The notes under the pieces: model-generated | The model's database searches: none | Seen by the model: the letters and a program-made list of their open reading frames with translations, nothing else | What the model was told of the DNA's origin: nothing | Shown here: one piece after another, positions 3,200 through 25,638 of the stretch | How positions within the stretch are numbered: position 1 is the stretch's first letter | Layout: every line of letters begins with the position of its first letter | Made by a program: the position numbers and the translations under genes | Origin: Amphiura filiformis | Lineage: Eukaryota; Echinodermata; Ophiuroidea; Amphilepidida; Amphiuridae | Length of the DNA: 64,000 nucleotides | Reading direction: 5' to 3' | Assembly (NCBI RefSeq): GCF_039555335.1 | Contig: NC_092628.1 | Coordinates: 94,251,782-94,315,781 of the forward strand

Positions 3200-3423
3200 T
3201 CTCTCTCATAGGGATAAGAATTACTTTCTCTATAGAGGGAACCGAGGGGTAAGAATTACTGTCTCTTACGGGAACCGCGGGGTAACGTTACTATCTCTTG
3301 TGAGAACCGAGGGGAAAGAACTACTGTCTCGGATGAGAACCGAAGGGTAATCATTACTGTTTCCTATGGGAACCGAGGGGTAAGAATTACTGTCTCGAAT
3401 AGGAACCGATGGTTAAGAATTAG
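3200..3423 (+). repeat. Second block of the 33-bp minisatellite
   Basis: About six or seven further units with the GGGAACCGAGGGGTAAGAAT core. The sequence matches units of the 1713-2813 array, including its GGGAAAGAACTACTGTCTCG variant. Confidence 0.8.
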
Positions 3424-3696: not shown

Positions 3697-4382
3697 TCAA
3701 GGATCGTCTTTGCTGCGGATTGCATCAATGAAATGTGATGGTGGGATAGCCAGCGGCATGCTATAACGACGCCTTTCGTTACCGCGATTCGTTTGTGGCA
3801 GTGGAGATAGTGTCGCCACATTCCTTTGAATTGCCGTGCTTTCCGAGATTTCAATAACCTTGCTTCTTCTCTTAGTAGTGGAATGGTCTGCAATCCAAGG
3901 TGTGGTGTCTCGAACTGTGGTAATGTCGTTAGTACTGACGACTCGCCTGATGTCATGACTGAAATGTCGTACAGGCGCTGGGCCCTTGTTAGTGTACTTG
4001 ATGTGGACTTTAGTGGCGTCACCCTTTGAATGTATCGCCGGTATGACGCAGTTGTAGCTTTTGGAACGGAGGTTGACGTTACTGTGTGAACGTCTGCCTT
4101 CACTCACCCTGAAACGGGCCAGATCTCTTCGGCCGGGTGGCATCAACTGGTTCGTATGGATGTTTTCCTCTATGATCTTGGCGTTATGATCAGCCAAATT
4201 GACGTCATTGTTGCTGTAAACTCGACGAACAGGATGAATAGACCTGTATGGCTCATAGCGACGAGCCTTTGTTTGTCGATGATGTGTTTCCGTTGACAAG
4301 CTTCGAGGATCTCCAGACTTGGAGTTTGAGCGCCTGATTGGTGGTCTGATCTGCATTTCAGACTCCCTATTACAGGGTGAAC
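3697..4382 (-). CDS. Exon 3 (last) of the T-box-less paralogue
   Basis: The acceptor is ...CATTTTAG at 4383 and the stop TGA is at 3699-3697. Exon 2 supplies G and this exon GT, making Gly (phase 1). It encodes GSPCNRESEMQIRPPIRR and onward, 228 residues rich in Arg, Ser, Asn and Thr. Short motifs recur (VYSNNDVN, VVSTNDIT, RSHSNVN). No known domain is recognised. Confidence 0.65.
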
Positions 4383-7300
4383 CTAAAATGACATAAGCAA
4401 TTTAAAAAAATTACAACAACATGAAATGATAACATGAAAAATTCATATACCATAATTATGGCTTTGATCTTGGAATATCCAATGTACTCCTGCATCTCGC
4501 TTATTAGGTGCATTCTCAACACATCCTTACAGGTTGCATCTACTGGCAATGAAAAAGTAATCGATCTAGCTACCATCTTTTACTGTTTTACGATTTGGAC
4601 GCAGAAACGCCAAAGGAGAAAAGGACGTAAGGTTTCTCAGCAAACACAAAACGTTTTCGACATCATTCGCAAAAGGTTGTAAAAGATTTCCCCTGTTTTA
4701 TATAAAAGGTTGTCAGAAAACGTTTAAATGTCAGGTTATATAAAGGGTATATTAAGGGTATAAAACGTTTTTATCACATTAAAAAACATTTTTTGATAAT
4801 CTACTGTCCAGCAAACACAAAATGTTTTACAGAAAACGTTTAAATGTCGGGTTATATAAAGGGTATAAAACGTTTTAATCACATTCCAAAAACATTTTTG
4901 ATATTTTGTTATATTTATGTTATTTTGGGGTTGAAAAAATATTTTGCAAAAATGTTTGCCCAAAATATTTGCTATAACGTTTTAAAAACGTTTCATGACC
5001 TTTATATAACCCAACATAAACATTTTAAGAACATTGCTGGGTGCAAATATTTCAACATAATGTTGTTTAAGGGGGTACTACACCCCTGGCCAATTTTGTG
5101 CCTATTTTCGCATTTTTCTCAAAAATTATAGCACATTGGTGACAAGTAAGATATGTATATTATAAGGGCAAGGACTACAACTACTGTACTTAAAATTCAG
5201 CAACTCAAAGCAAGTAGTTATTGATTTATTGATCAAATATTGGTTTTCCCTCATTTTTGACTGTAACTCCACAACTGTTGTCTGTGCTGAAATAAAATTC
5301 CCAGTGCAGTAGTTGTAGTCCTTGCCCCTATAATATACATATCTTACTTGTCCCCAATGCGATATAATTTTTGAGAAAAATGCAAGAATAGGCACAAAAT
5401 TGGGCAGGGGTGTAGTACACCCTTAAGTGTTGACAAAATATTTGGCAACAAATATTTGCAAAAATAGTTTACAAAATATTCTTGTAGTGTGTCTTCATAC
5501 AAAACGTTTTAAAACGTTTTCATGACCTTTATATAACCCGACACTTAATGTTATTAAAACATTTTTACCTAAACCAAGAGGAGGCACTGTTCCAGTGTCG
5601 AGGAGCTGAAAATAACCCTTTGCCAGCACCTACACCAGTAGGTGCAGAATCTGGATTTTCCCTCATGGATTTATCTATGGGGGTGCTCCCAACCTACTCA
5701 TCTCTACCTTTCACCTTCACTCTTTCTATAATCTTTTCTTGCTATATTTTTTTTTCATTTCGCAATCCAGTTAGCAAGGATAGGTGAGTCAAAATAGTTG
5801 GCTTGGTAGGATAGGGGAGATTACCGACTGTAATATCATTCTGGGGTACAGGATATACGTAGATCCCCAGTTTGATGGTGAAGGCGAGCGCCACATGGGC
5901 ACCTTCTTGTGTGCCATCCCCTGTATACCGTGTTCAGTTATACTGTTTATAGTTGCAGGAAGTGTGGACGCTAACTGGTATTGTGTCTATCCCTTCCATC
6001 TTTCTCTCTTTCTCCCCAATCATAGAGTAAAAGTAGGTTGTAGTAACATCTTGTGATGCAAACAACATCTTGCAATCAGGGTGAGGTAACCCTATTAACC
6101 TGTACCGACAACACGCATCCTGCCAGCGCGTCAGTATATGGCAGAAACCCCCCATGAATTATGAAGTACAAGAATAAGGAAGGCCGTAGAACCCAAGGCC
6201 ATAATGGGTACCATGCATCTATATAGATGGTTTGAAATCGCCCAGTCATATAAGGCAAGACCTCCGAATGACGTTCTGCAGTCAAAGCCACGAGGAGGCT
6301 CTAAGGCGGGGAAGAGTGGAAGTTTCAGAATGGAGAATAGGAAGACTGGACAAGAATTATTTGTTTGCACATACAACACAAGAACAATCAGAACAGAAGA
6401 ATTCTTACAACATTTGTTGGAAGAGTTAGAGGAATTCAAGTGGGACATCATTGGTTTAGCAGAAACAAGGAGAGAAGAGGAAGGGTTGGAAGAGATTGAA
6501 GGGGGAGCTTGGTTGCAAACAGAGGAACAACAGAAGATGAAAAAAGACAAGAGGAGGTGGTTTCCTGATACATTCAAAAATCAAAGACTACATTATAGAG
6601 GTGAAGAGTTACTCAAATCTGGTCATCTTACTAAGACTTTAGCTAGCTGGAAAGGAAGAGATGTGCATCATCCAGGTATATGCACCAACAATTGACCATG
6701 ATGATGATGAAGTGGAGCAGTTATCACAAAGGCGTTGGAAGAGCACAAATCAAATTATACTATAGTTTAATGCTAAAGTCGGTAAACAACAAGAAGGTGA
6801 AGAAAATATCTTTGGAAAATTTGGAGTTGGAGAAAGAAATAGAAGGGGTGAGACCATGATAGAATTTGCTGCCCAACACAGTCTTATGATCATACTGGAC
6901 TTGGGAAAGCCCAAACGGCCATACCAAAAATCAAATTGACTTTATACTCAGTAGTCAGAGAGGAATTGTGAAAAACTGTGAAGTCATCACTAGAGTAGAT
7001 ATCGCTAGTGACCACAGAATGGTGAGAGCCTGCATTCACATCAGCAGGAAGTTAGCCAGACTTAAATTCATCAAGAGCCAGAGAAAGAAGAAAGTTAACT
7101 TGCTTAAACTAAGAGAAAGGAAGGAAGAATTTTAAATCCAATTGCAAAATATATTTCATATCTTGGAAGATGAACATCTCAACATAGATGACAGATGCAG
7201 CCTGATAACATACATCATCCTAGAAGAGGCAGCATCTGTAGCACCTCCAAGTAAAAGCTCCAAACAGAAGACAGAAGAGGATATTGAAATCGACCAATTG

Positions 7301-10300
7301 AACTCAAAGAAATTAATTCGAAATTAAGTCGAAAGAAGGTCAGCATCCAAAACGACGCGAGAAAGATGGTTCACCAACTTCAAATAGGGAGGAAATCCTC
7401 AAAATATGTTCCGACTTCTATATATAAAGAACTATACAATTCACACGCAGAGGCCAAGAAGCCAAAATAACATCACCAGAAAACTCAGAATTACCAGACA
7501 TATCATTTCGTGAAGTAGAAACAGCAATCAAGGAGATGAAGAAAAACAAGGCACCAGGATTAGGTGAGATAACAAAGGATATTCTCGAGGAGGGAGGAAG
7601 TGAAGTAATAACCCATCTAGCAAAAGTGTTTAACTAAATCATTACCAAAAAATGCATCCCAAAATCTTGGAAAGAAGCAAAAATCATTCTTCTTCACAAG
7701 AAGGGAGACAAAGCAGACATCAAGAATTACAGACCCATTAGTTTTCTCTCACATCTGTACAAAATGTTCACAAAAATTCTTCAAAATAGACTAAAGAAAG
7801 AACTGGATGAACATCAACCACAAGAGCAGGCGGTTTTTAGAGAAGGTTTCTCAACCATGGACCACCTACTTGCAATAAACCAACTTATAGAAAAGTCAAA
7901 CGAATACCAGCATGACTTATGTATTGGATTCATTGATTACGAGAAAGCATTTGATTCCGTAGAACATCAGGATCTCTTCCAAGCACTGAGAGAAATAGGT
8001 ATAAATGAAGGGTATGTTTGTATTCTGGAGGATATATATTATATACACAGATGCAACATCTCGAATCCATCTGGATAGTGACGTTTCTGAAATTGTTAAG
8101 ATATCCAGAGGAGTTAGACAAGGAGATACGTTGTCACCAAAGATATTCACAGCAGCTATGGAGGATATCTTCAAAAAACTACATTTGGATGAAAGAGGAA
8201 TCAATGTTGATGGAGAAAAATTAACAGACCTCCGATTTGCAGATGATGTTGCCCTTACTACCTCAACAGTGAAGGACATGGAAATACAACTTTCTGACTT
8301 GAATTTAGAAAGCAAGAAGGTGGGATTGAAAATGCACAAAGGAAAAACACAATATATTACAAATATGGCAACAGATGAAAAGATCATCATTGAAGATCAG
8401 GAAATTGGAAGAGTTGATGAGTATAAATATCTGGGCCAAACACTGAGGGTTAAAGGATTGTTCGAAGGAAGAAGTATTGAGAAGGACAAAACCAGGATGG
8501 AGTTGCTTTGGAAGACATAAAGAAATATTATGCAACAAAAATATACCCATGTCACTCAGAAGGAAAGTATACAATCAAAGTGTCCTTCCAACAATGATGT
8601 ATGGCTCTGAAACATGGTCATCAACTAAATACTCCAAAAAGAGCAAGGAGGAGGCTCTAAGGCGGGGGAGAGTGGAAGTTTCAGAATGGAGAATAGTAGG
8701 AAGACTTGACAAGAGTTATTTGTTTGCACATACATCACAAGAACAATCAGAACAGAAGAGTTCTTACAACATTTGTTGGAAGAGTTAGAGGAATTCAAGT
8801 GGGACATCATTGGTTTAGCAGAAACAAGAAGAGAAGAGGAAGGGTTGGAAGAGATTGAAGGGGAGCTTGGTTGCACAACTGAGGAACAACAGAAGATGAC
8901 AAAAAGACAAGAGGAGGTGGTTTCCTGATACATTCAAAAATCAAAGACTACATTATAGAGGTGAAGAGTTACTCAAATCTGGTCAGCTTACTAAGACTTT
9001 AGCTAGCTGGAAAGGAAGAGATGTGCATCATCCAGGTATATGCACCAACAATTGACCATGATGATGATGAAGTGGCGCAGAAAACAAAAATATACCCATG
9101 TCACTCAGAAGGAAAGTATACAATCAATGTGTCCTTCCAACAATGATGTATGGCTCTGAAACATGGTCATCAACTAAATACTCCAAAAAGAGCAATGGAA
9201 CGGCAAATTTTAAACATCTCACTGCGAGACAAAGTAAGGTGCTCAACCATCAGACAGCTGACCGATGTTGCAGACATTTTGAGAAAAATCAAACAATCAA
9301 AACGGAGATGGGCTGGACATGTTGCCAGAAGAAATGATAACAAATGGACAAAGAGATTGTTAGAATGGCAACCAAGAAGTTAGCGCCATGTACTCATTAC
9401 CAGTGGAGACACGAGGTAGCTGGGCCGGGTGGGGCAAAGTAAAATGGTAAAATTTGGTATCCCCTCCCCCTCAAAAAAAAAGGGGGGTTTTAGGTGATTA
9501 TTTGTTTTGACTGCGGAAAACCAAGGACCGAAGTCTTGGAGGACGTCTTTTTGATTTTGGCCCTCTGGAAATTGTGTCTGGCCTACATAGAGTAGGGCAC
9601 CAAAGTTGTTTTTTCGGTGACACACAAATCTCAAATTTTGGCTCAAATAAGCGAAAATTTTAATGATATTGAAACTCAAAAGGTGGCGAAGAACGAGTGT
9701 TCCTGAGCGCCACCATTGATTTACCATTAAACAAAATCTTACCGTGACTGCGTCTCATTCGAAGCGTTCCATCTGTCTTACCAAAGATCTTCTCATTATG
9801 ATAAGGTCTGGAAGATCGAAATATTAAAATGAAATTCATAGTAATGGAGTATGCCACATCCAACTATTGGGCTAACAAAGTCAAAAGTCGTTTTAATAAC
9901 TTTGAGCGACAAGCCTCTTCTCTCAGCCAAAAACCTCAAATAGTAGTATTTTTTGGTCTTAAATGTTTGTTCAACTTTTAACGTCTATATACCTTTACAA
10001 AACTGCATTTTGAAAGTTCTAAAGTATCGCTCGAGATATGTATGTGCTTTTGAAGTATGTCTTAATGTTATTTTCAATATACAAACAAAAAAACGATGAA
10101 GTTATAAATCAGTATTGGTTTATCATACATTTTTATACATACCTTTGAACCCGATGGAGAATCAATTCGTCATCACGTTGGTGAACCCCTATCCACATGT
10201 TACCATGTTTCACATGGGGGTCATTTTTATTAAGTAATTTAATTTTACCACCATCATAATCACCACCACCACCATCATCATAATCACCACCACCACCACC

Positions 10301-10804
10301 ACCACCACCACCACGTTCCTGTAAACATAAGTCAAAAAGTTCTGATATATGCGTCTTAGTTGCAGCCACGTTCTTGTTTTCCTGTTTGGAACGCCAGTTT
10401 GGTGGTGTAAAGTTATCATGACTGCTTTCTTCAGTCATCCTGTGTTCATTGAGTTTCATCAGAAGAAGTTTGTTGATGTGCTCTTTCTCTGGAACAATTA
10501 ATGATCTCGGTTGACTGAACTCACTCTTTGTGTAACTGAAATTAGAGCCGCCAGGAGGAAACGCAGAAATAAACGTGGAATCATCTAGCTCCAATGGTGG
10601 CAAGTGCAGTTGTATATCAGGCATACTACTGACATTGTCAACACATCGTTGGCGTGTTCTATTAGAAGTGAAAGATGTCAGGCTTGTACCATGGAAGATT
10701 CCTTGATGATGCGCGAGCCACTCAAACTCAGGACTGGAATCCCGACTGTCTTTTTGCAGGAGTGAATCGATGGAGAAAGCTCGAGCTTTTGCAGATAACG
10801 TCAT
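3697..10804 (-). CDS. T-box-related protein with eh1-like motif but lacking the core T-box (3 exons)
   Basis: Exons 10804-10143, 9807-9743 and 4382-3697 join in frame (intron phases 2 and 1) to give 470 aa and a stop. Residues 1-16 are MTLSAKARAFSIDSLL. FSIDSLL at 10-16 resembles the eh1 motif that binds Groucho/TLE corepressors, and 12 of these 16 residues match the T-box gene at 18431. Exon 1 ends GNMWIGVHQ then DDELILHRVQ-R, which aligns without gaps to the first strand of a T-box (W, E, I, L, R and R shared) and ends at the same codon and phase. The exons for the rest of a T-box are absent: intron 1 is only 335 bp and shows none. A Gly/Asp/Tyr-rich run (about 167-187) is coded by a trinucleotide repeat. 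The C-terminal 228 residues are basic, Ser/Arg/Asn-rich and unrecognised. Inferred: a former T-box factor now acting, if at all, through its corepressor motif. It could instead be a decaying gene. Confidence 0.65.
4638..5041. mobile_element. Two nested or tandem copies of the CCAGCAAACAC palindromic MITE
   Basis: A truncated left copy (4638-about 4804) is followed by a more complete one (4808-5041) that starts CCAGCAAACACAAAATG and ends ACATTGCTGGG. Both carry ATGTCGGGTTATATAAAGGG and the inverted 'ccttTATATAACCC' block, as at 1343-1524. They lie in the large intron of the T-box-less paralogue. Confidence 0.6.
5067..5426. mobile_element. TTAA-flanked foldback element, copy 1
   Basis: It begins TTAAGGGGGTACTACACCCC and ends GGGGTGTAGTACACCCTTAA. 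The two halves are long inverted copies of each other, including 'ataagggcaaggactacaac' mirrored by 'gtagtccttgcccctataat'. TTAA at both ends suggests insertion into a TTAA target, as in piggyBac-like elements. A second copy is at 20899-21265. Confidence 0.7.
5427..6194. other. Non-coding intron sequence
   Basis: It contains a right-end fragment of the CCAGCAAACAC MITE (about 5490-5570, 'catgacctttatataacccg'), then unrecognised sequence with a pyrimidine-rich stretch near 5700-5770. No exon with convincing splice sites is seen on the minus strand. Confidence 0.35.
6330..7060 (+). pseudogene. LINE apurinic-type endonuclease domain, broken
   Basis: One frame gives CTYNTRTIRTEEF...WDIIGLAETRREEEG. 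After about 6560 the homology continues in another frame (GGGFLIHSKIKDYIIEVKS), then a further frame gives ESPNGHTKNQIDFIL and VDIASDHRMVRA, which holds the catalytic SDH. Several stops and shifts show it is dead. Function before decay: nicking target DNA for reverse transcription. Confidence 0.8.
7520..8520 (+). pseudogene. LINE reverse transcriptase domain, broken
   Basis: It reads NKAPGLGEITKDILEEGG, a stop at about 7635, KKGDKADIKNYRPISFLSHL, then GFSTMDHLLAINQLIE and FIDYEKAFDSVEHQDL. A frameshift near 8040 follows, then GVRQGDTLSPKIFTAAMEDI, LRFADDVALTTST (catalytic ADD) and DEYKYLGQTLR. The order and spacing fit a RTE-type polymerase. Stops and a shift make it inactive. Confidence 0.85.
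8646..9080 (+). repeat. Duplicated LINE endonuclease segment inserted in the LINE 3' end
   Basis: This stretch repeats 6291-6721 with few differences (GGAGGCTCTAAGGCGGG start, GATGATGATGAAGTGG end). It is flanked by a direct duplication of about 115 bp of the 3' region: 8534-8647 and 9083-9197 both carry 'atacccatgtcactcagaag' through 'ctccaaaaagagcaa'. Confidence 0.85.
9384..9742. other. Intron sequence without recognised features
   Basis: It lies between the LINE 3' end and exon 2 of the minus-strand gene. It has a poly-A/poly-G patch at about 9472-9487. Frames on either strand show no known domain, and in particular no T-box. Confidence 0.4.
9743..9807 (-). CDS. Exon 2 of the T-box-less paralogue
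   Basis: The acceptor is TTTCGATCTTCCAG and the donor is CACG/GTAAGA. The 65-bp exon enters in phase 2 and leaves in phase 1, coding (R)PYHNEKIFGKTDGTLRMRRSH(G). Exon 4 of the T-box gene also enters in phase 2 and leaves in phase 1, so this exon may be its counterpart. Residue similarity is weak. Confidence 0.65.
10143..10804 (-). CDS. Exon 1 of the T-box-less paralogue
   Basis: The ATG at 10804 has context CACCGAAATGACG. The donor is TTCAAAG/GTATGT at 10142, leaving AG (phase 2). It codes for 220 residues starting MTLSAKARAFSIDSLL. The last 18 residues, from Trp204, keep the spacing of the first T-box strand (W...E-L-I-L-x-R-x-x-R). Confidence 0.75.
10242..10318. repeat. Coding trinucleotide repeat (CCA/TCA type) in exon 1
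   Basis: A run of CAC, CAT and AAT triplets on the plus strand reads on the minus strand as nine glycines, then DYDD, four glycines and DYDGG. Length variation here would change the protein without shifting the frame. Confidence 0.8.
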
Positions 10805-11835: not shown

Positions 11836-12550
11836 ATCTTTTGTAACTGCAATAACATCGTATCGTCACCCTCATAACAAAACTGCCTAAGTCATTCTTA
11901 CATGTTTTTCATTTGCAATTTTGATTTTCTGAGTAATAAACCCATAATTGATCCAATTTCCAGCCGCATTCTTCATTAACTTGTGGAATACATCAAAAGA
12001 GATGTGTTTTTACAGATTTCCATTACGCACATTTTAAGCTTATTTTAAAGTGTGGAAGATCAAGTTAAGAAATTAATTCGTAATTCAAGAAAAAGTATTA
12101 TAGGCCTAGGTGCAGGAAGACAGGTTTTTGAGAGTGCAAGAACATGAGCACATAGGATACTCTTGCAACTTTATTTGACTTCAATGCTTGGTATACTAAG
12201 GGGTTATGGCTTGGCACGTTGGTTTCAACACCTTATACCAACTGTTCCGGGAACTGTTCCCGGTCTGAAAGAAGGGAGTAGCCACTACTGTAATGTGATT
12301 CCCTGATGTCAACAGTTGCTGCACTGGAGAGGGAGTGTTCCCGGGAACAAAGCGCTCAACCCACCGCCGCCCGTCCCAAGTCGGGGGCAGTGCAGCAGAA
12401 TGTTAGATTGATGGAACAGGATTTATAATATATCTACCTGGGCTTAATACAGCAAACAACAACTTGCTTCATCTGTACACGTCCTTAAAAAACGTTGATT
12501 GCAGACCAAGCCAAGAAGCAGCCACTCCACGGCTATGGACTTTCACTCAA
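11836..12550. other. Intergenic sequence left of the satellite array
   Basis: No gene is seen. It contains 'gttccgggaactgttcccgg' (about 12243-12262) and a second GTTCCCGGGAAC palindrome near 12340, of unknown meaning. Confidence 0.35.
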
Positions 12551-15500
12551 GGCACCCTACACGTGGAAAGTCTACTTTGCTTCCATTGTTGTATCAGGGC
12601 ACCCCACACGTGGAAAGTCTGCTTTGCTTCCATTGTTGTGCCAGGGCATCCTACACGTGGAAAGTCTACTTTGCTTCCATTGTTGTATCAGGGCACCCTA
12701 CACGTGGAAAGTCTACGTTGCTTCCATTGTTGTACCAGGGCACCCTACACGTGGAAAGTCTACTTTGCTTCCATTGTTGTATCAGGGCACCAGCACATGG
12801 AAAGTCTACTTTGCTTCCATTGTTGTATCAGGGCACCAGCACGTGGAACGTCTACCGTCCTTCCACTGTTGTATCAGGGCAACCTACATGTGGAAAGTCT
12901 AGTTTGCTTCCATTGTTGTATCAGGGCACCCCATACACGTGGAAAGTCTACTCTTGCTTCCATTGTTGTACCAGGGCACCCACACCTACTGGAAAGTCTA
13001 CTTGCTTCCATTGTTGTATCAGGGCACCCGTAAAGTCTACACGTGGAAAGTCTACTTTTGCTTCCATTGTTGTACCAGGGCACCCTACACGTGGAAAGTC
13101 TACTTTGCTTCCATTGTTGTATCAGGGCACCCTACACGTGGAAAGTCTACTTTGCTTCCATTGTTGTACCAGGGCACCCTACACGTGGAAAGTCTACCTT
13201 GTTTCCATTGTTGTATCAGGGAACCCTACACGTGGAAAGTCTACTTTGCTTCCATTGTTGTACCAGGGCACCCCACACATGGAAAGTCTACTTTGCTTCC
13301 ATTGTTGTACCAGGGCACCCTACACGTGGAAAGTCTACTTTGCTTCCATTGTTGTATCAGGGCACCCTACACGTGGAAAGTCTACGTTGCTTCCATTGTT
13401 GTACCAGGGCACCCTACACGTGGAAAGTCTACTTTGCTTCCATTGTTGTATCAGGGCACCAGCACATGGAAAGTCTACTTTGCTTCCATTGTTGTATCAG
13501 GGCACCCTACACGTGGAAAGTCTACTTTGCTTCCATTGTTGTACCAGGGCACCCCACGTGGAAAGTCACATTGTTGTAAGTCTAAAGTCTTTGCTTCCAT
13601 TGTTGTACCAGGGCACCCTACACGTGGAAAGTCTACTTTGCTTCCATTGTTGTACCAGGGCACCCTACACGTGGAAAGTCTACCTTGCTTCCATTGTTGT
13701 ATCAGGGCACCCTACACGTGGAAAGTCTACTTTGCTTCCATTGTTGTACCAGGGCACCCTACACATGGAAAGTCTACTTTGCTTCCATTGTTGTACCAGG
13801 GCACCCCATTGTTGTACCAGGGCACCCTACACGTGGAAAGTCTACTTTGCTTCCATTGTTGTATCAGGGCACCCTACACATGGAAAGTCTACTTTGCTTC
13901 CATTGTTGTATCAGGGCACCCTACACGTGGAAAGTCTACTTTGCTTCCATTGTTGTATCAGGGCACCCCCTACACGTGGAAAGTCTACTTTGCTTCCATT
14001 GTTGTATCAGGGCACCCTACACGTGGAAAGTCTACTTTGCTTCCATTGTTGTATCAGGGCACCCCACACATGGAAAGTCTACTTTGCTTCCATTGTTGTA
14101 CCAGGGCACCCTACACATGGAAAGTCTACTTTGCTTCCATTGTTGTATCAGGGCACCCTACACGTGGAAAGTCTACTTTGCTTCCATTGTTGTACCAGGG
14201 CACCCTACACATGGAAAGTCTACTTTGCTTCCATTGTTGTACCAGGGCACCCTACACGTGGAAAGTCTACTTTGCTTCCATTGTTGTACCAGGGCACCCT
14301 ACACATGAAAGTCTACTTTGCTTCCATTGTTGTATCAGGGCACCCTACACGTGGAAAGTCTACCTTGCTTCCATTGTTGTATCAGGGCACCCTACACGTG
14401 GAAAGTCTACTTTGCTTCCATTGTTGTATCAGGGCACCCTACACGTGGAAAGTCTACTTTGCTTCCATTGTTGTACCAGGGCACCCTACACGTGGAAAGT
14501 CTACTTTGCTTCCATTGTTGTATCAGGGCACCCTACACGTGGAAAGTCTACTTTGCTTCCATTGTTGTATCAGGGCACCCTACACATGGAAAGTCTACTT
14601 TGCTTCCATTGTTGTATCAGGGCACCCCACACATGGAAAGTCTACTTTGCTTCTATTGTTGTATCAGGGCACCCTACACGTGGAAAGTCTACTTTGCTTC
14701 CGTTGTTGTATCTGGGCACCAGCACGTGGAAAGTCTACTTTGCTTCCATTGTTGTACCAGGGCACCCCACACATGGAAAGTCTACTTTGCTTCCATTGTT
14801 GTACCAGGGCACCCTACACATGGAAAGTCTACCTTGCTTCCATTGTTGTACCAGGGCACCCTACACGTGGAAAGTCTACTTTCCTTCCATTGTTGTACCA
14901 GGGCACCCTACACATGGAAAGTCTACTTTGCTTCCATTGTTGTATCAAGGCACCCTACACGTGGAAAGTCTACTTTGCTTCCATTGTTGTACCAGGGCAC
15001 CTACACATGGAAAGTCTACTTTGCTTCCGTTGTTGTATCAGGGCACCAGCACGTGGAAAGTCTACTTTGATTCCGTTGTTTTATCAGAGCACCCCACACG
15101 TGGAAAGTCTACTTTGCTTCCATTGTTGTACCAGGGCACCCCACACATGGAAAGTCTACTTTGCTTCCATTGTTGTATCAAGGCACCCTACACGTGGAAA
15201 GTCTACTTTGCTTCCATTGTTGTACCAGGGCACCTACACATGGAAAGTACTTTGCTTCCGTTGTTGTATCAGGGCACCAGCACGTGGAAAGTCTACTTTG
15301 ATTCCGTTGTTTTATCAGAGCACCCCACACGTGGAAAGTCTACTTTGCTTCCATTGTTGTACCAGGGCACCCTACACATGGAAAGTCTACCTTGCTTCCA
15401 TTGTTGTACCAGGGCACCCTACACGTGGAAAGTCTACTTTGCTTCCATTGTTGTACCAAGGCACCCTACACGTGGAAAGTCTACTTTGCTTCCATTGTTG

Positions 15501-17279
15501 TACCAGGGCACCCCACACATGGAAAGTCTACTTTGCTTCCATTGTTGTACCAGGGCACCCCACACATGGAAAGTCTACTTTGCTTCCATTGTTGTACCAG
15601 GGCACCCTACACGTGGAAAGTCTACTTTGCTTCCATTGTTGTACCAGGGCACCCCACACATGGAAAGTCTACCTTGCTTCCATTGTTGTACCAGGGCACC
15701 CTACACGTGGAAAGTCTACCTTGCTTCCATTGTTGTACCAGGGCACCCTACACATGGAAAGTCTACTTTGCTTCCATTGTTGTGCCAGGGCACCCTACAC
15801 GTGAAAAGTCTACCTTGCTTCCATTGTTGTACCAGGGCACCCCACACGTGGAAAGTCTACCTTGCTTCCATTGTTGTACCAGGGCACCCTACACGTGGAA
15901 AGTCTACTTTGCTTCCATTGTTGTGCCAGGGCACCCTACACGTGAAAAGTCTACTTTGCTTCCATTGTTGTATCAGGGCACCCTACACGTGGAAAGTCTA
16001 CTTTGCTTCCATTGTTGTACCAGGGCACCCCACACATGGAAAGTCTACCTTGCTTCCATTGTTGTACCAGGGCACCCTACACGTGGAAAGTCTACCTTGC
16101 TTCCATTGTTGTATCAGGGCACCCTACACATGGAAAGTCTACCTTGCTTCCATTGTTGTACCAGGGCACCCTACACATGGAAAGTCTACTTTGCTTCCAT
16201 TGTTGTACCAGGGCACCCCACACATGGAAAGTCTACCTTGCTTCCATTGTTGTACCAGGGCACCCTACACGTGGAAAGTCTACTTTGCTTCCATTGTTGT
16301 GCCAGGGCACCCTACACGTGAAAAGTCTACTTTGCTTCCATTGTTGTACCAGGGCACCCTACACATGGAAAGTCTACTTTGCTTCCATTGTTGTGCCAGG
16401 GCACCCTACACGTGAAAAGTCTACCTTGCTTCCATTGTTGTACCAGGGCACCCGACTACCTTGCTTCCATTGTTGTACCAGGGCACCCTACACGTGGAAA
16501 GTCTACTTTGCTTCCATTGTTGTGCCAGGGCACCCTACACGTGAAAAGTCTACTTTGCTTCCATTGTTGTATCAGGGCACCCTACACGTGGAAAGTCTAC
16601 TTTGCTTCCATTGTTGTATCAGGGCACCCTACACGTGGAAAGTCTACTTTGCTTCCATTGTTGTACCAGGGCACCCCACACATGGAAAGTCTACTTTGCT
16701 TCCATTGTTGTATCAGGGCACCCTACACGTGGAAAGTCTACTTTGCTTCCATTGTTGTACCAGGGCACCCTACACGTGGAAAGTCTACTTTGCTTCCATT
16801 GTTGTGCCAGGGCACCCTACACGTGAAAAGTCTACTTTGCTTCCATTGTTGTATCAGGGCACCCTACACGTGGAAAGTCTACTTTGCTTCCATTGTTGTA
16901 CCAGGGCACCCCACACATGGAAAGTCTACCTTGCTTCCATTGTTGTACCAGGGCACCCTACACGTGGAAAGTCTACCTTGCTTCCATTGTTGTATCAGGG
17001 CACCCTACACATGGAAAGTCTACCTTGCTTCCATTGTTGTACCAGGGCACCCTACACATGGAAAGTCTACTTTGCTTCCATTGTTGTACCAGGGCACCCT
17101 ACACATGGAAAGTCTACTTTGCTTCCATTGTTGTACCAGGGCACCCTACACATGGAAAGTCTACCTTGCTGCCGTTATTGTATAAGGGCACCCTACATGT
17201 GGAAAGTCTTTCGATTGTCGTATCAAGGTACCATACCCCATACGTGGAAAGTCTAGACATTGTTTCCAATGTTGTGTCT
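12551..17279 (+). repeat. 47-bp minisatellite, about 100 tandem copies, each with a CACGTG or CACATG core
   Basis: Each 47-bp unit starts GGGCACCC, carries TACACGTGGAAAGTCTAC and ends TTGTTGTATCA or TTGTTGTACCA. CACGTG is the palindromic E-box (bound by bHLH/bHLH-Zip factors in animals), often replaced by CACATG. Recurrent variants are CCAGCACGTGG, CCCCACACATGG and GTGCCAGGGCACC...CACGTGAAAAG. Single-unit indels occur, for example near 13020-13060, 13555-13590 and 16450, and the last two or three units (17165-17279) are degenerate. No TAA, TAG or TGA occurs in the consensus, and 47 is not a multiple of three, so all three forward frames stay open for kilobases. This is not evidence of coding. 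It lies between two divergent T-box-related genes. Confidence 0.95.
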
Positions 17280-18430: not shown

Positions 18431-19294
18431 ATGACCCTGTCCAGAAATGCCACCGCTTTTTCAATAGACGCATTACTCTCTCGACAAGATTCGTTTAAAT
18501 CCGATCAGACTAACCTTGAAGTCGGAAGCGCTGCGTTGAAATCGGTTTCCAGCGGTAGTAGTGGGCCTAGCACTAGTAAACCCTATCCGATACTAGATGC
18601 GGCATTCTCAAAACCTTTGCAGCATGACAATTCTGGAGTTTGTCTACCGGACAAGACACAGGAAGCTATATCGCCGGTACGCACGACATTACCGCTCGAT
18701 TTTGCGAGCAGTTTCGCTTCTATTGAAAATCGTCTGCGTCAGATATCAGTACAATCCCCAGAATTACCGCAGACTTTTAGCGGTAAAGGTGAAGCAGCCG
18801 ACAGAAATTCGTCATCGCCACGCCCTGGCCTATCTTCGTCGTCTAATGGTGGAATGACCAAATCTGCTAAAAAGTACCAGTCGGAACATCAACTAACTAT
18901 CCCATCTTTTAAGATTCATGTAGATAACATGAACGAGAATGTCCCGTTAGATGGTTCCTCTCCAGAATCAATACAAAATACCACTCTTGATCGGCGTTAT
19001 AGCGCACACTCAACAACATCTACAGAAAAGGCAGAAATCGAGGAAGCTCTGATGTGCTTAAAACACAATGCAGTAGGCCGTATTACGGACAAGCCTTTAG
19101 CGGTAGATCAATGGGTCAGATCTACCTTGGAATTCACCACGTCTCATGAAAGTGAAACTAGTCATACGAGCCAGTTTGCCGGGGAAAGCGTGTTTCAGAG
19201 CGTGAACGGAATAAAAAGTCACCTTGGTTAATTCGGATCTGTGGAAGAAGTTTAATCGTTGTGGTACCGAGATGATTCTTAACCGTGCGGGAAG
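18431..19294 (+). CDS. T-box gene exon 1: N-terminus and first T-box strand
   Basis: The ATG context is AACAAGATGACC. It codes [16 protein letters not shown], then a long Ser/Thr-rich linker. The frame from the ATG hits TAA at 19229-19231, but T-box homology ([20 protein letters not shown]) runs through the end in the next frame, to the donor GGAAG/GTAAGA at 19295. The switch lies in the A-run at 19213-19217. Confidence 0.85.
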
Positions 19295-22200
19295 GTAAGA
19301 GCTAAGAAGTCCATCTTATTTTTGTTCCAATTATCAATACCCCTGTAGTTTTCAGTGCCAACAGATTATGTATTTAGTAAAAACAGAATTTCGTCTAACA
19401 TATTTCTTATTGTAAACAAAATAAATTATAAACCTATGCTGAATTAAGGATACTGCCCTAGATTGCGACAATAATACGTCTGTCGGTATATCTGAATTTG
19501 TCATACCTATACCCGACAAATCTGAAAAGCGCGTGGTTATAGACTGGATGGAGTAAGACTGGAGCATCAATGCAATGCCCGTAACTAATGGTAGAGTTCA
19601 CAAATAGTTACGACGCATCCATCGTATACTCTTTATCATGTTTATATGTTTTACAAGTTAGTTACGATGGTTTTAAAGACTTATGATGGGGTTAAAGGAC
19701 TTATGACGCGTCGCAACTGAAAGCAGTAGCGTAGCCATGGGGGTAGGGGCAGAGTACCCCCTGACAACAAATGAAAGAAAAAAGTACCCCCTGACAACAA
19801 AATAAAAGAGAATATTTGAAAGGAACTAAGGAAAGAAAAAGGAGCAAGGAGCCCGTTTTCCATGAAAATTAATCCCGATCATGGGCCAAAATAGTGTAAA
19901 ATACAATTTTTGTCACAACAAAGCCTTTTTTGAAGCGCGAAGACTTTACGTGTACATTCTCTCTAAATAACTCGATTCGTGTCCCGACCAAGAAAGCTGG
20001 CTACGCTCTTGAGTGAAAGTCGACCACGGTGCTACTAACCGATTGCATAATGTTTAAACCATATATGGGTGTATGTATCACGGCATAAGTCCTTAATTTA
20101 TCCCATCGTAACTTGAGTTCGTATAGATATCGCAACTCTAACATGTAAAAGTTCTTGTAAACCCTGTGGAAGAGTTACGACGGATTTCGCACTTTCGACG
20201 CGTCGTAAATGTTAGTGAAATGTATCCAATTGAATCGCATACTCGTGTTCTTGAAATGTGCTTTGATAAGATGTTTTATAAATCCTTACTGATTATACTC
20301 TTTCTGTTCCAGACGCATGTTTCCCAGTATGCTCGTCACTGTAAATGGTCTAGAGGAATCGGTAGTATACAGGATTCGTTTACATATCGCTCCCGCCGAT
20401 GGACAACGCTACAAATTTATCAACTGTCAGTGGCTACCGGTAGGAAAGGCTGATGGTGAAACAGCCTGCACATACTTCGAGCATCACGACTCACCCAATA
20501 CCGGAGCCTTCTGGATGAAAGGGAACGTTTCTTTTTCAAAGTTGAAGATTACAAATAATAAAGAAAACGTCGAAAGAAACGTAAGTTTACTTTTTTATAC
20601 ATTATCTTTATAAGATCGTATTAATATAAAGGATATTTTGATAGTATTTTCATGTTGAGGGGCAATAGTGTTATTGCGGACATCATTTTGGTTGTTCGTA
20701 CTCGACCACATCAAAAATAATGGAAGTGGTAACAGTACTATTTAAATATTTGATTTTGTTACCATTCTGCGTACTTCCGAGCTCTATGCAAGTAAAGTAG
20801 AATTATATTACGTTTAGTATTTTGCTAATTTTAATATGCATAATTAATTATAGAGGTTATTGGAGTTCATTATGAAATACACCTCCGCATGTGGGAGATT
20901 AAGGGGGTACTACACCCCTGTGGTAAATTCGTGACTATTTTTGCATTTTTCTTAAAAAATAATACCACACTGGTAACAAAAGTTATGTATACTATTGGGG
21001 CAAGGAATCAAATTACTACACTGAAATTTCAGTGACTCAAGACAAGCGGTTCAGTTTATATGATAGGAAATGAGGTACATTCGAGCGGTACCTCTTTTCT
21101 TATCATAAATAACGAACCGCTTGTCTTGGGTCACTGAAATTCCAGTGTAGTAATTGATTCCTTGCCCCTATAATATACATAACTTTTGTAACCACTGTTT
21201 TATTAGTTTTTGAGAAAAATGCAAAAATAGACACAAATTTATCGAGGGGTGTAGTACCCCCTTAAAGTCATGTCTTTCATAGGGATGTGTGGATTTTGAC
21301 TGGAATAGTCAGTCCCATTAGATTCGCACAGTTAATTCCTATAGATGTGCTTTGCCGTTTGAAAAAAAAAGCTACAAAATGCAAACAGACAAGACGGAAT
21401 ACATAAATAATGTGCATGCATCTTCATTTTTTCACAGATCGTTTTGAATTCAATGCACAAGTACATCCCACGCATCGTGATAATTCGAGAAGTCAGCCCT
21501 GTATCAGATGTCACTCAACCACAGGTGACTTACTTCAGTTTTCCCGAAACTGCTTTTATTGCGGTAACGGCCTATCAGAATCAACAGATAACACAACTGA
21601 AGATACAGAATAACCCGTTTGCTAAGGCCTTCCGTGACGCTGATGTTGCCGCGTAAGTAATCGTATATGCATTATTATATAAATTTAAGTATCACGAAAT
21701 CGCGTGTATATATCGTACGCGATGTGGAAAAGGGTCAAGGGAGGTGAAGAGGACGAAGTGATGTGCAGTGGCACTGCAGTTATATCACGCTGATACAATA
21801 TTGCAAGGAATGTAAACTTTCCACGTCCTGGGTGCCCGTGAAGCAGTCACAGTCAGTGGTATCAAAGGCACATACCGAGAGAAGAGGGGGAGAAACATGA
21901 GGAAGAGATAAAGAATAAAAAGAACAAGAGGGAGAAGAAGGGGAGGAGGGGAGAAGAAGTGATATTCAGTGTTACTGCACTAATATGACAATGTGATACA
22001 ATAAATACAGAAAGCAAACAATGTAGACTTTCCACGTCCTGGGTATTTTTAAAGATGTTATAGGCCTATCACAAGAAAGCGATTCCATTCAATAGCATCA
22101 ACTTTCAACAACAATAACAGTGGCCAGACGTCAATACAACCAGCAACAAAACAATCGTAGCCATTACAACTTTTCATCAATACCCCAGTATGATTTTATC

Positions 22201-25200
22201 CTGTTATTTAGAACCATTTTTTCCTGATATTTTTAGCCAGGGTGAAACTTGCCCCCTGTCGGTACGCCTCTGACAACAGCAGCAGTGTTGATAATCACCA
22301 TCAAATCCTGCCGTTTTTGTATTGTTTCAGATTGCTTCAGAGTTCACATGGCCTGTCTCCCGACATGGCGTATAGCGATGGCTACCAACACCATTCATAC
22401 ATCTCACGTCGTGGTAAGTTGCTTTATGATTATAAATATTATGCCTCATATATTGGGAAAATGTCAAAAGTTGGCGGAAAACAATCTTAAACCGTACAGA
22501 CTTTATAATATGGCGCCTAAAATGAGGACACGGTAGCTCAGTGGTTACGGCCTTGGACTCATAATATGAGAGCTTGCTCGACGTGCGTGGGTTCGAACCC
22601 CCGTCCCACCACCGTGTTGGGCCCTTGGGCAAGGCGCTTTGCCTCGCTTGTCTCACCCACCCAGGTGCAACGGGAAGCTGTTAGGGGTATAGTCACAGTC
22701 GTTGTACTGATAAACCCTGCGCCATTTGTAGACTGCAAACGTGGTTCCGACATATTCTAATGACGGCGGAATAAATTTAAAAGCGCTTTGAGGCTGTTTA
22801 CATCATAAAGCTCTATATAAATATCTACATTTATTTAAAAATGGATTTTTTCGGCCCTGATTTGGTAAAACGATCTAACTAGAAATTTGGACATTTTGAG
22901 ATAAATCCATATCATGGGTAATGTGAGGGCGCTCTTTCCATTGGTGACATCCTCAAATCACCACCATGCCACCAAATAATGAGATTTTTATATTTTCTAA
23001 GACATTAGATCTGTTTAATAATTTATTTTATTCAAAAAGAAAAACGGCAAGTGTTCAAACTTTAAAGCTCTTTTTCACGAAACAGCGATTTTAATTTCAA
23101 GTTAGATCATTTTACCAAATCAGGGCCGCACTCTCAATCATTCTGTCCTGTATGCATAACACAAACGTTCTTTCCGGCCTTTCCAGAACCATTTTCAGGT
23201 CTAAATAATTCTTTTGAACCACTTAAAGTTCCACATACAAGACAGCTCAAGGTACTACTTAGAACCATTTTGCTAAGAGTGATTTTACTGACATTCAGAG
23301 AATCGAACACAGTATACCTACTTACAATTTATTATTCATTTTTTATTATCGTTTCTTTAACAGGTTCCAGCCCTGATTATAGACCTTATAAAAAATTGGT
23401 CTCTGCAAATGAAACGAGCGATCGTCGGCGGAGTTTGCCCGGGACAACACCTTACCTCAAACCAAACAATGCCTTCCTCCGACCACCGTCCGGTTTCGCC
23501 AATATGCCTTGGTATAGTAAACTGGAGAAACCTTGTCGCTTACCACGAGAGAGCGATCATGGAGGGTCTGCATGTTCGTCTCTATTGTCGCTTGAATCTG
23601 GTTTTGGAGATTCCCCTATCCCAACAGAAATGTCAGAAAAGGTATAAATGCGGAATACCAGTAGCTTTACAAGATTATGTTGTCAAAATTCGACTCAATA
23701 ATATCAAGACTAAAAAGCAGTGGCGGCGGAAGCATTTTAATTGTTAAAACATTTAGGGGGGGTCGGTTTTTTGGCTTTTCTTTTTTCTTCTTCTTTTTTT
23801 GTGGAATTTGCTTGCATATTTAAACCCAAAATGAAGGTGAATTTTGTAATACCGGGCCAGTGTGGTAATTTATCGGCAATAACATAATGTATCACGGTTT
23901 TATGATATCCAGCTATGTGTAATCGATCAGGCAAGAGCGTTGAATATATTTAAATAAAGCGCCTAAAGTCAGGTGGGTGACACCTGTCCATCTCCCGACA
24001 CACCCCAATAAATATTTAACCCGTGCGGTTTATGCAGACACCTTTCAGAGTAGTCTTGGCACTTTATGCAGAAATATTCCATACATAATGTAAAGTCTGT
24101 ACTTATAGTCTGATGATCATCTATAGTAGTATGATCAGTACAAAAAATCCAAAGCGATTTTAAAATTATTGTCTAAAATTAAAAGAACCGCTTTGTAGCG
24201 GGAATTTGTGTAAGTTACACAGCTGAAATTGTGAAAGGGTTGAAAGACTACATTATGATTATGGCATAAACAAGAATATGTTCGTTTTGTCTTTGTTCGC
24301 TTGAAACTTTCGTTACCAATCGGCGGTCTTGAATCGCATTAAATCGACGTCACACGTTCACGTAGCGTGTCCACTTGGAAAATCTAATGTCTGTTAGTGT
24401 ATGCCAATCCAATAAATGACATTTTAAACCATCCAAGTTCCAGTATTATTTATATCGTATTCTATCATTAACACAACCTTGCAGGTTCGATTAACTAAGT
24501 CCAAATCAACAGAAGTGTACAGTGGGAAAAAAGTGCAGCAACACCAATCATTCGGTGCGTCTGGAGGTTGCGGGTCCGCATCCAATTTATCCGTCGCCAA
24601 TGATGTCTACTGGACGCACTCACCAAACCCACGCATCGAACTAGAAATATCAGAAAAGGTAAATACGGGATACCAGTAGCTTTACAGAAATATGTTTTAA
24701 CTGAAAAACAGTGGCGGCGGAAGCATTAACATATAGGGGGTCGATTTTTGGGCTTTTCGTTTTTGGAATTTGCTCGCAACCCAAAATGAAGGTGAATTTT
24801 GTTATTTACCGGACCAGTACGGTCAATTTATCAGCCATAACATAATGCATCACAATTTAATGACATACGTGAGAACAATGGTACCACTTTCTCAGGTGGT
24901 GCGCTTACACATGTCTTTATTGTGGTCACTTTATTGATTTTCGCCTGCTTGTGTAAAGCGTCGAGATGCTGCCGGATCATTGACCAATTTAATGGCGGAA
25001 CTACTTTTATGAATAGCCAGTCGGCAAATCAAATTGGCATCAAAGGAACAATGCGTTACGTAATCTATTTCTTCTTCTTTCTATCTAAGCTCCTTGATCA
25101 GTACACTGTTCAATGGCCTTATTGTGGTAGATGTCTCATTTAAGTCAGATTATCATAATATGCTATAATTAGGGTCGGGGTTACGGTTGTTAGGGTTAGA

Positions 25201-25638
25201 GGTTAGGGTTATGGTAAGGGTTAGTAACCCTTACCCTAGTTAACATACCGTCTGTCTTAAATGAGACATTATTATTTATATCGTATTCTATTATTGCAGG
25301 TTCGATTAACCAAGTCCAAATCAACAGAAGTGTACAGTGGGAAACAAGAAAAAAGGCAGCAGCACCAATCATTCGGTGCGTCTGGAGGTTGCGGATCCGC
25401 ATCCAATTTATCCGTCACCAATGATGTCTACTGGACGCACTCACCAAACCCACGCATAGAACTACCTCCTTCTCATTCTTTATCCTCCTTGCCCTTACGA
25501 TCTCCGCCGATGAGCAAACGACGTTTGGAACCACCCAATTGTATTGCATTTAATCTCAACATACCACTTAAGAGATGTCGGAGCATCTCCCCTTCAAGAA
25601 TGACATCATCACCAACGGATATGCCTACTGACCAATAA
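18431..25638 (+). CDS. T-box transcription factor, 7 exons, with an apparent 1-bp frameshift
   Basis: Exons: 18431-19294, 20313-20580, 21438-21652, 22331-22413, 23364-23641, 24485-24658, 25300-25638. All junctions are GT-AG with matching phases (2, 0, 2, 1, 0, 0). With one surplus base in an A-run at 19213-19217 discounted, the product is about 739 aa. FSIDALL at 10-16 is an eh1-like corepressor motif. The T-box (about 261-448) shows [67 protein letters not shown] and [10 protein letters not shown], so DNA binding at T-sites is expected. Parts recall Brachyury (FSK, PFAKAF) and parts Tbr/Eomes (SPNTG); I cannot assign a subfamily. The C-terminus is Ser/Pro-rich with a basic PLKRCRS patch. Exon 6 is a partial duplicate of exon 7. 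The gene is divergent from the paralogue at 10804. Confidence 0.88.
19213..19217 (+). other. Probable one-base frameshift in an A homopolymer at the T-box start
   Basis: With five A the frame reads NGIKSHLG and stops. With four A it reads [16 protein letters not shown], the expected beginning of a T-box. The T-box frame has a stop (19212-19214) just upstream, so the domain cannot be reached without a shift, and no sensible intron fits here. Sequencing error, an allelic null or a real frameshift are all possible. Confidence 0.75.
19724..20011. mobile_element. CAGTAGCGTAGCC-ended MITE, copy 2 (T-box intron 1)
   Basis: It starts CAGTAGCGTAGCCATGGGGG and ends GAAAGCTGGCTACGCTCTTG. The interior 'gggccaaaatagtgtaaaat' matches 39-546 and, in reverse orientation, 35770-36123. 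Confidence 0.65.
20313..20580 (+). CDS. T-box gene exon 2: central T-box
   Basis: The acceptor is CTTTCTGTTCCAG and the donor GAAAC/GTAAGT. It enters in phase 2 (AG+A = Arg) and leaves in phase 0. It codes [17 protein letters not shown] through [16 protein letters not shown] and [16 protein letters not shown], the central strands of the domain. Confidence 0.92.
20899..21265. mobile_element. TTAA-flanked foldback element, copy 2 (T-box intron 2)
   Basis: It begins TTAAGGGGGTACTACACCCC and ends GGGTGTAGTACCCCCTTAA. The halves are inverted copies ('attggggcaaggaatcaaat' and 'attgattccttgcccctata'). It is the same family as 5067-5426. Confidence 0.72.
21438..21652 (+). CDS. T-box gene exon 3: C-terminal part of the T-box
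   Basis: The acceptor is CATTTTTTCACAG and the donor GCCGC/GTAAGT. It enters in phase 0 and leaves in phase 2. It codes [19 protein letters not shown], then [20 protein letters not shown] and [13 protein letters not shown]. Exons 2 and 3 together are 483 bp (161 codons), so removing both keeps the frame. Confidence 0.92.
21770..22050 (-). repeat. Two direct copies of a longer relative of the 47-bp satellite unit (T-box intron 3)
   Basis: On the minus strand ACCCAGGACGTGGAAAGT followed by TTACATT or CTACATT occurs at about 21812-21833 and 22020-22043. Each is followed by a TGTATCA or TATTGTATCA block and a GTGCAGTAACACTG-type block. The two copies, about 210 bp apart, flank a purine-rich stretch. 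Confidence 0.6.
22331..22413 (+). CDS. T-box gene exon 4
   Basis: The acceptor is GTATTGTTTCAG and the donor TCGTG/GTAAGT. The 83-bp exon enters in phase 2 and leaves in phase 1, coding (A)[19 protein letters not shown] then HHSYISRR(G). It lies just after the T-box and has no recognised motif. A slightly later AG ('gcttcag') is possible but breaks the frame. Confidence 0.8.
22524..22835 (+). mobile_element. tRNA-derived SINE
   Basis: A tRNA-like head has an A box (TAGCTCAGTGG) and a B box (GGTTCGAACCC) at promoter spacing. It is followed by a body with CCCTTGGGCAAGGCGCTTTG and a tail AAGCGCTTTGAGGCTGTTT, then ATAAAGCTCTATATAAAT. The B box ends a tRNA-like T-arm, but the head is not a clean tRNA gene. 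It lies in intron 4 of the T-box gene. Confidence 0.85.
22852..23129. mobile_element. 278-bp inverted-repeat element in T-box intron 4
   Basis: The left end CGGCCCTGATTTGGTAAAAC is mirrored by the right end TTTTACCAAATCAGGGCCG, extended by 'gatctaact' and 'agttagatc'. It has no coding capacity. Confidence 0.65.
23364..23641 (+). CDS. T-box gene exon 5
   Basis: The acceptor is TTTCTTTAACAG and the donor GAAAAG/GTATAA. It enters in phase 1 and leaves in phase 0. It codes [20 protein letters not shown], then [14 protein letters not shown] and a Ser-rich [15 protein letters not shown] end. No domain is recognised. Its final bases and following intron are partly copied after exon 6. Confidence 0.82.
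23620..25100 (+). repeat. Segmental duplication within the 3' part of the T-box gene
   Basis: The end of exon 5 plus about 250 bp of intron (23625-23910) recurs from 24641 to 24870: TCAGAAAAGGTAAATACGGG matches TCAGAAAAGGTATAAATGCG, and both then carry 'cagtggcggcggaagcatt'. The intron end before exon 6 (TTTATATCGTATTCTAT) recurs before exon 7, and exon 6 repeats the first half of exon 7. The block at 24870-25100 recurs after the stop codon at about 25735-26010. Confidence 0.8.
24485..24658 (+). CDS. T-box gene exon 6, a hybrid duplicate exon
   Basis: The acceptor is CAACCTTGCAG and the donor GAAAAG/GTAAAT, phase 0 at both ends (58 codons). It codes [16 protein letters not shown], then [15 protein letters not shown] as in exon 7, but ends EISEK like exon 5 (EMSEK). 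Including or skipping it keeps the frame, so it could be optional. Confidence 0.7.
25133..25268. mobile_element. Small foldback with telomere-like centre (T-box intron 6)
   Basis: The ends TGTCTCATTTAAGTCAGA and TCTGTCTTAAATGAGACA are inverted copies. Between them lie TTAGGG-type repeats (GTTAGGGTTAGAGGTTAGGG), then the reverse GTAACCCTTACCCTAG. Confidence 0.65.
25300..25638 (+). CDS. T-box gene exon 7 (last)
   Basis: The acceptor is CTATTATTGCAG (phase 0) and the stop TAA is at 25636-25638. It codes [57 protein letters not shown], and a tail [20 protein letters not shown]. The basic MSKRR and LKRCR patches could be nuclear-localisation signals (inference). Confidence 0.82.
   Translation, partial: VRLTKSKSTEVYSGKQEKRQQHQSFGASGGCGSASNLSVTNDVYWTHSPNPRIELPPSHSLSSLPLRSPPMSKRRLEPPNCIAFNLNIPLKRCRSISPSRMTSSPTDMPTDQ

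Follow-up and report, generated by a model that had tools for sequence, protein, structure and literature searches.

A T-box gene and its head-to-head neighbour

The locus raises the question of whether a gene can descend from a T-box gene, lose the DNA-binding core, and still be kept. In the window (the whole stretch of DNA analysed here, 64 kb long), a predicted gene (gene A) is placed head-to-head with a T-box gene (gene B). Their start codons are separated by 7626 bases (B start at 18431), which agrees with the distance of 7.6 kb given in the initial annotation. We propose that gene A is an old inverted T-box duplicate. It would have lost its DNA-binding core and kept its eh1-like N-terminus, and it may work as a corepressor decoy or adaptor. 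We give this reading a probability of about 0.58. How the exons of gene A join, how its T-box would have been deleted, and what the gene does are inferred from one genome, one 64-kb window, public profiles, and literature; the joins themselves are predictions.

Exon structure and coding signal of gene A

Gene A presents three exons on the minus strand (10804-10143, 9807-9743, and 4382-3697). As first annotated, they join in frame into a stop-free protein of 470 amino acids, with GT donors and AG acceptors at all the predicted joins. The exons measure 662 nt, 65 nt, and 686 nt, and the joining phases are 2 and then 1. Exon 1 (10143..10804, minus strand) consists of 220 codons plus 2 nt and exits in phase 2. 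It begins with MTLSAKARAFSIDSLL, which includes the eh1-like FSIDSLL, and it also carries a Gly-rich GGT repeat. Exon 2 (9743..9807, minus strand; 65 nt) goes from phase 2 to phase 1. Exon 3 (3697..4382, minus strand) provides 227 whole residues after a split Gly codon and terminates in a stop, with an AATAAA poly(A) signal 67 nt downstream. This C-terminal half is basic (pI 10.75). Intron 1 has 335 nt and intron 2 has 5.36 kb. A retroelement is present in intron 2 at 6165-8928 on the plus strand. It contains RVT_1 at 7638-8520, and its pieces are partly repeated.

Leaving the tandem arrays out, the longest open runs of the window belong to exon 1 of gene B (269 codons), exon 3 of gene A (234), and exon 1 of gene A (230). 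No Markov null reached an open run of 200 codons (0/60). With a codon score trained on 911 codons, mostly of gene B, exon 1 of gene A obtained +0.055 and exon 3 obtained +0.13. Presumed non-coding DNA (2000 windows of 220 codons) had a mean of -0.138, with a standard deviation of 0.051 and a maximum of 0.002. Exon 3 reaches +0.163 in another frame, above its own. Likewise, exon 1 without the Gly repeat drops to +0.018, below the +0.052 of another frame. The composition of gene A is thus coding-like, but it does not prove the frame, because both exons score higher in other frames (exon 1 once the repeat is removed).

Exon 2 is the sole open phase 2-to-1 mini-exon (30-300 nt) in the introns of gene A with both sites this good. 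Control DNA contains no equivalent, either in 9 kb or in 12.9 kb; the splice-site weights behind these counts and the acceptor scores are approximate. The acceptor of exon 3 is moderate (2.76 bits), and about 6% of the AG sites on that strand are equal or better. An alternative acceptor inside exon 3 (exon start at 4366) joins exon 1 directly to exon 3, in frame, and gives 443 amino acids. Since this direct join exists, the transcript may lack exon 2 or include it only optionally.

These observations bear on another explanation. The T-box exons of gene A could be located to the left of the window or have been lost by misassembly, with exons 2 and 3 as drawn being wrong or alternative. The window ends 3.7 kb beyond the stop of gene A, and assembly can fail in a 5.36-kb intron with a reverse transcriptase element and partly repeated pieces. 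Moreover, the joins are only predicted, and the exons can be joined in frame in more than one way. Nevertheless, exons 2 and 3 have open frames with compatible phases, the sites of exon 2 are good, and there is a poly(A) signal after the stop. We regard this explanation as unlikely.

The 470-residue protein shows no family in a Pfam scan with E values up to 10. CesT matched a 59-residue piece of gene A (E 0.084) and a glycine-rich family the exon-1 open reading frame (E 0.0034), both weakly and under the curated Pfam cut-offs; the source of the latter match is the Gly repeat. A sequence search of the PDB with gene A returned 13 matches, the best with an E value of 1.2, and the viral contigs scanned with gene A gave no match. 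Structure predictions from the single sequence were uninformative, with a mean pLDDT of 34.8 for the exon-1 frame and 36.3 for exon 3. Gene A lacks the stops, the frameshifts, and the intron loss of a pseudogene; it has two predicted introns and an open frame of 470 codons.

Organization of gene B

Gene B is encoded on the plus strand. Its exon 1 (18431..19294) contains the eh1-bearing start and the start of the T-box, and exits in phase 2. The T-box continues in exon 2 (20313..20580) and ends in exon 3 (21438..21652). This domain, spanning exons 1-3, is recognized by Pfam with an E value of 2.3e-70, and its best PDB relatives are the T protein and TBX5. Exon 4 (22331..22413; 83 nt) goes from phase 2 to phase 1. 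The end of exon 5 (23364..23643) is uncertain, with a weak donor. The 3' exons (24485..25638) include two near-identical tandem copies, from 24485 on and from 25300 on, and the stop is at 25636-25638. The tandem copies of a late exon, at 24479-24643 and 25294-25464, are 95-96% alike.

In exon 1 of gene B, the eh1 frame and the T-box frame are one base apart at a run of A (19213-19217). The eh1 frame stops at 19229-19231, the T-box frame opens after a stop at 19212-19214, and both frames overlap there. Inspection by eye gave no convincing splice pair reconciling them. An assembly error could account for the offset, as could a polymorphism or real damage to gene B. It leaves the frame of gene A unaffected.

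A shared N-terminus, probably kept by selection

The N-termini of both genes share 12 of 16 residues, aligned without gaps from Met1 (BLOSUM62 score of 53; 10757..10804, minus strand, in gene A). Among the 54,443 stop-free windows of 16 residues in the six frames, gene B itself scores 74, gene A 53, and the next one 30. In 100,000 permutations, none equalled the score of gene A. The likeness noticed in the initial annotation, including the eh1-like FSIDSLL, is therefore upheld. By inspection, this motif (residues 10-16 of gene A) follows the eh1 pattern FSI..LL close to the N-terminus. The identity also reaches beyond the eh1 core, with MTLS and two alanines. Of the evidence that the two genes are probably related, the N-terminal match is the firm part.

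We also considered the silent changes. In the first 16 codons, the 12 that encode the same residue include 11 degenerate codons, and 10 of these 11 differ silently. Divergence was simulated from a B-like ancestor for both copies, at seven distances with 4000 runs each. The simulation assumes this ancestor, equal mutation rates, and the mutation model chosen. When gene A drifted freely, at least 12 identical residues together with at least 10 silent differences appeared in 0 of 4000 runs at every distance. A constrained gene A reached the joint outcome in up to 674 of 4000 runs (constraint of 0.05) and up to 136 of 4000 (constraint of 0.2). Because simulated free drift never gave this outcome, the duplication would be old. 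Under the same model, selection would have kept the eh1-like start of gene A during much of the time since.

Gene A might instead be a recent relic, functional until lately, whose frame is still open by luck. The selection signal at the N-terminus is an average since the duplication and would fit such a history. However, drift throughout the post-duplication time is excluded in the simulation, and the predicted frame of 470 codons is free of stops and frameshifts. A recent relic is, in our judgement, slightly less credible than T-box exons lying elsewhere.

The end of exon 1 resembles the first T-box strand

The initial annotation read the end of exon 1 as a match to the first strand of a T-box. 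In gene A, this degenerate match (MWIGVHQRDDELILHRVQ, then R at the join; 10143..10198, minus strand) has the same intron phase as in gene B. Compared with the T-box start of gene B, the exon end WIGVHQRDDELILHRVQ, again followed by R, is identical in 5 of its last 18 whole residues. These 18 residues were scored without gaps against the T-box starts of gene B, TBX5, and the T protein, and the scores were summed. Permutations reached the individual score in 1 of 20,000 cases against gene B, 0 of 20,000 against TBX5, and 16 of 20,000 against the T protein. The window has 3016 phase-2 GT ends preceded by 18 or more open codons; by the summed score, gene B reaches 204, gene A 66, and the next end 47. 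If 60 or more open codons are required (n = 593), gene A is first and the next end scores 31; both rankings concern a position that had already been picked in the initial annotation.

A profile of T-box starts placed the exon-1 open reading frame of gene A at rank 507 among the 1786 frames listed (2816 given), and the stretch that it aligned differs from the exon end. The EMI...GRRMFP core is present in all three aligned T-boxes and mostly gone in gene A, which has DELILHRVQR and then PYHN. This is unlike a working T-box, and it also argues against T-box exons of gene A located elsewhere. The position, the phase, and the rank after gene B agree with the initial reading. The T-box profile and Pfam miss a T-box in gene A, for which reason we grade the strand match, seen in the sequence, as suggestive.

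Both ends of exon 1 have to be weighed against convergence, that is, a gene A unrelated to gene B, with an eh1-like motif of its own and next to gene B by chance. Eh1 motifs seem to have arisen several times in association with different domains (PMC1310626). The similarity between the two genes is confined to 16 plus about 18 residues, and the T-box profile misses the strand match. Against this, the identity extends past the eh1 core in register from Met1, and the end of exon 1 agrees in position and phase too. Convergence seems to us quite improbable, a little more so than a recent relic.

Absence of a T-box match and proposed history of the loss

We searched the whole window outside the exons of gene B for a T-box. 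The best hits were at chance level, both with tblastn using T-boxes (E 0.92) and with the T-box profile (E 3.9). Across the whole window, with this tblastn search and with an HMM of three T-boxes, only the three T-box exons of gene B rose above chance. In the three-sequence profile, the exon-1 open reading frame of gene A had rank 508 among the 1824 listed. The T-box family PF00907, with a domain of about 180 residues, was not found in gene A, against an E value of 2.3e-70 for gene B. These profile results, like the Pfam scan of the protein, speak for the loss of the T-box and against the strand match.

The initial annotation proposed that exons 2 and 3 of a B-like gene were deleted. In gene B these exons total 483 nt, which is divisible by three, so dropping them preserves the frame. 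As was also annotated, exon 2 of gene A enters in phase 2 and exits in phase 1, like exon 4 of gene B. This agreement is about a 1-in-3 coincidence, because the phase of exon 1 leaves only the exit phase free.

The sequences do not follow the phases. In a comparison of 18 segment pairs of both genes elsewhere, the best pair was matched by 53 of 300 shuffles. A descent of exons 2 and 3 of gene A from exon 4 onwards of gene B is unsupported (62/300 shuffles for exon 2 against exon 4; 140/300 for exon 3 against exon 5). Exon 2 as a leftover of T-box exon 3, aligning to KTDGTLRMRRSH/RVGGTQRMITSH of the T protein, was rejected as probable chance. There, 73 of 2000 shuffles reach the score, uncorrected, and 752 of 2000 do so against TBX5. 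We likewise rejected the retroelement as a deletion scar; it is in intron 2, and the loss of B-like exons 2 and 3 is expected in the 335-nt intron 1.

With phases that fit and sequences that do not, a deletion of exons 2 and 3 with exon 4 kept is a weak suggestion. Four points speak for a T-box paralogue without its core, as initially proposed: the relatedness of the N-termini, the place and phase of the exon-1 end, a locus with no T-box above chance, and an eh1-like start that selection would have retained. A descent of exons 2 and 3 from later exons of gene B has no sequence support.

Gene A as a possible corepressor decoy or adaptor

According to the preferred reading, an inverted T-box duplicate, the duplication of an ancestral T-box gene would have left gene A head-to-head with gene B. 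Then, gene A would have lost nearly all of the DNA-binding T-box and retained the ancestral eh1-like N-terminus. By analogy with other eh1 T-box proteins, this tag may bind Groucho/TLE. The protein is probably nuclear; its basic C-terminal half is compatible with this and is not proof. Without a T-box, the protein would not by itself be brought to T-box sites, which leads to the roles of decoy or adaptor. As a decoy, it would draw the corepressor away from T-box repressors such as gene B. Alternatively, as an adaptor, it would carry the corepressor to other partners.

An N-terminal eh1 motif is described for the T-box proteins TBX18, TBX20, TBX22, MLS-1, and MAB-9, among others, in PMC1310626 and PMC3154951. 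The latter also reports that MLS-1 of C. elegans binds the Groucho protein UNC-37 through this motif. According to PMC6071992, TBX18 without the eh1 motif has its repression reduced by about half. Gene A resembles these factors (TBX18, TBX20, TBX22, and MLS-1 and MAB-9 of C. elegans) in its eh1-like motif near the N-terminus. In contrast, they have a T-box, and gene A has none beyond the degenerate first strand. The end of exon 1 of gene B falls inside the first T-box strand; gene A retains that end and its phase.

Adaptors of the Ripply/Bowline type bring Groucho/TLE to T-box factors (PMC4178057). They may be a functional analogue of gene A, with no DNA binding of the T-box-factor type. The two differ in that gene A carries an N-terminal eh1-like motif and is without WRPW. 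Ripply/Bowline proteins use the WRPW motif and are not known to derive from T-box genes.

Id proteins are relatives of transcription factors that lack DNA binding, keep an interaction part, and act by titration. They keep the dimerisation domain, whereas gene A would have kept a corepressor tag. In the literature searched, the titles and abstract openings among the matches listed do not describe a T-box paralogue without a T-box.

More tentatively, and at less than even odds, gene A could be a dedicated decoy or adaptor free of DNA binding that tunes the Groucho-dependent repression exerted by its neighbour. It would then be a separate intact gene and not a splice form. If this is true, duplication and loss of the DNA-binding domain can turn a developmental transcription factor into a pure cofactor-handling protein. 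Selection would persist on a short start tag after the domain is lost, and the locus would be a natural test of what eh1 titration alone achieves in T-box networks. As both genes are side by side, shared regulation and a B-specific antagonism are directly testable.

Repeats and other genes in the window

The DNA comparison of both loci gave a single strong match, which is non-coding. It is a palindromic repeat of about 375 bp, present at 5067-5426 (intron 2 of gene A) and 20899-21266 (intron 2 of gene B), about 73% alike in both orientations. This repeat is MITE-like. A 47-bp minisatellite array occupies 12547-17209, between the two genes, and related single units seem, by eye, to be present elsewhere in the window. 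Arrays of 33 bp are located at 1713-2800 and 3210-3422. Together with spliced genes of T-box and CD39 type and the retroelement, these minisatellites make an animal origin of the DNA most likely. Finally, exons of a GDA1/CD39-type nucleoside phosphatase gene are present on the minus strand at 41760-50303; 3 of 10 scanned stretches match this family.
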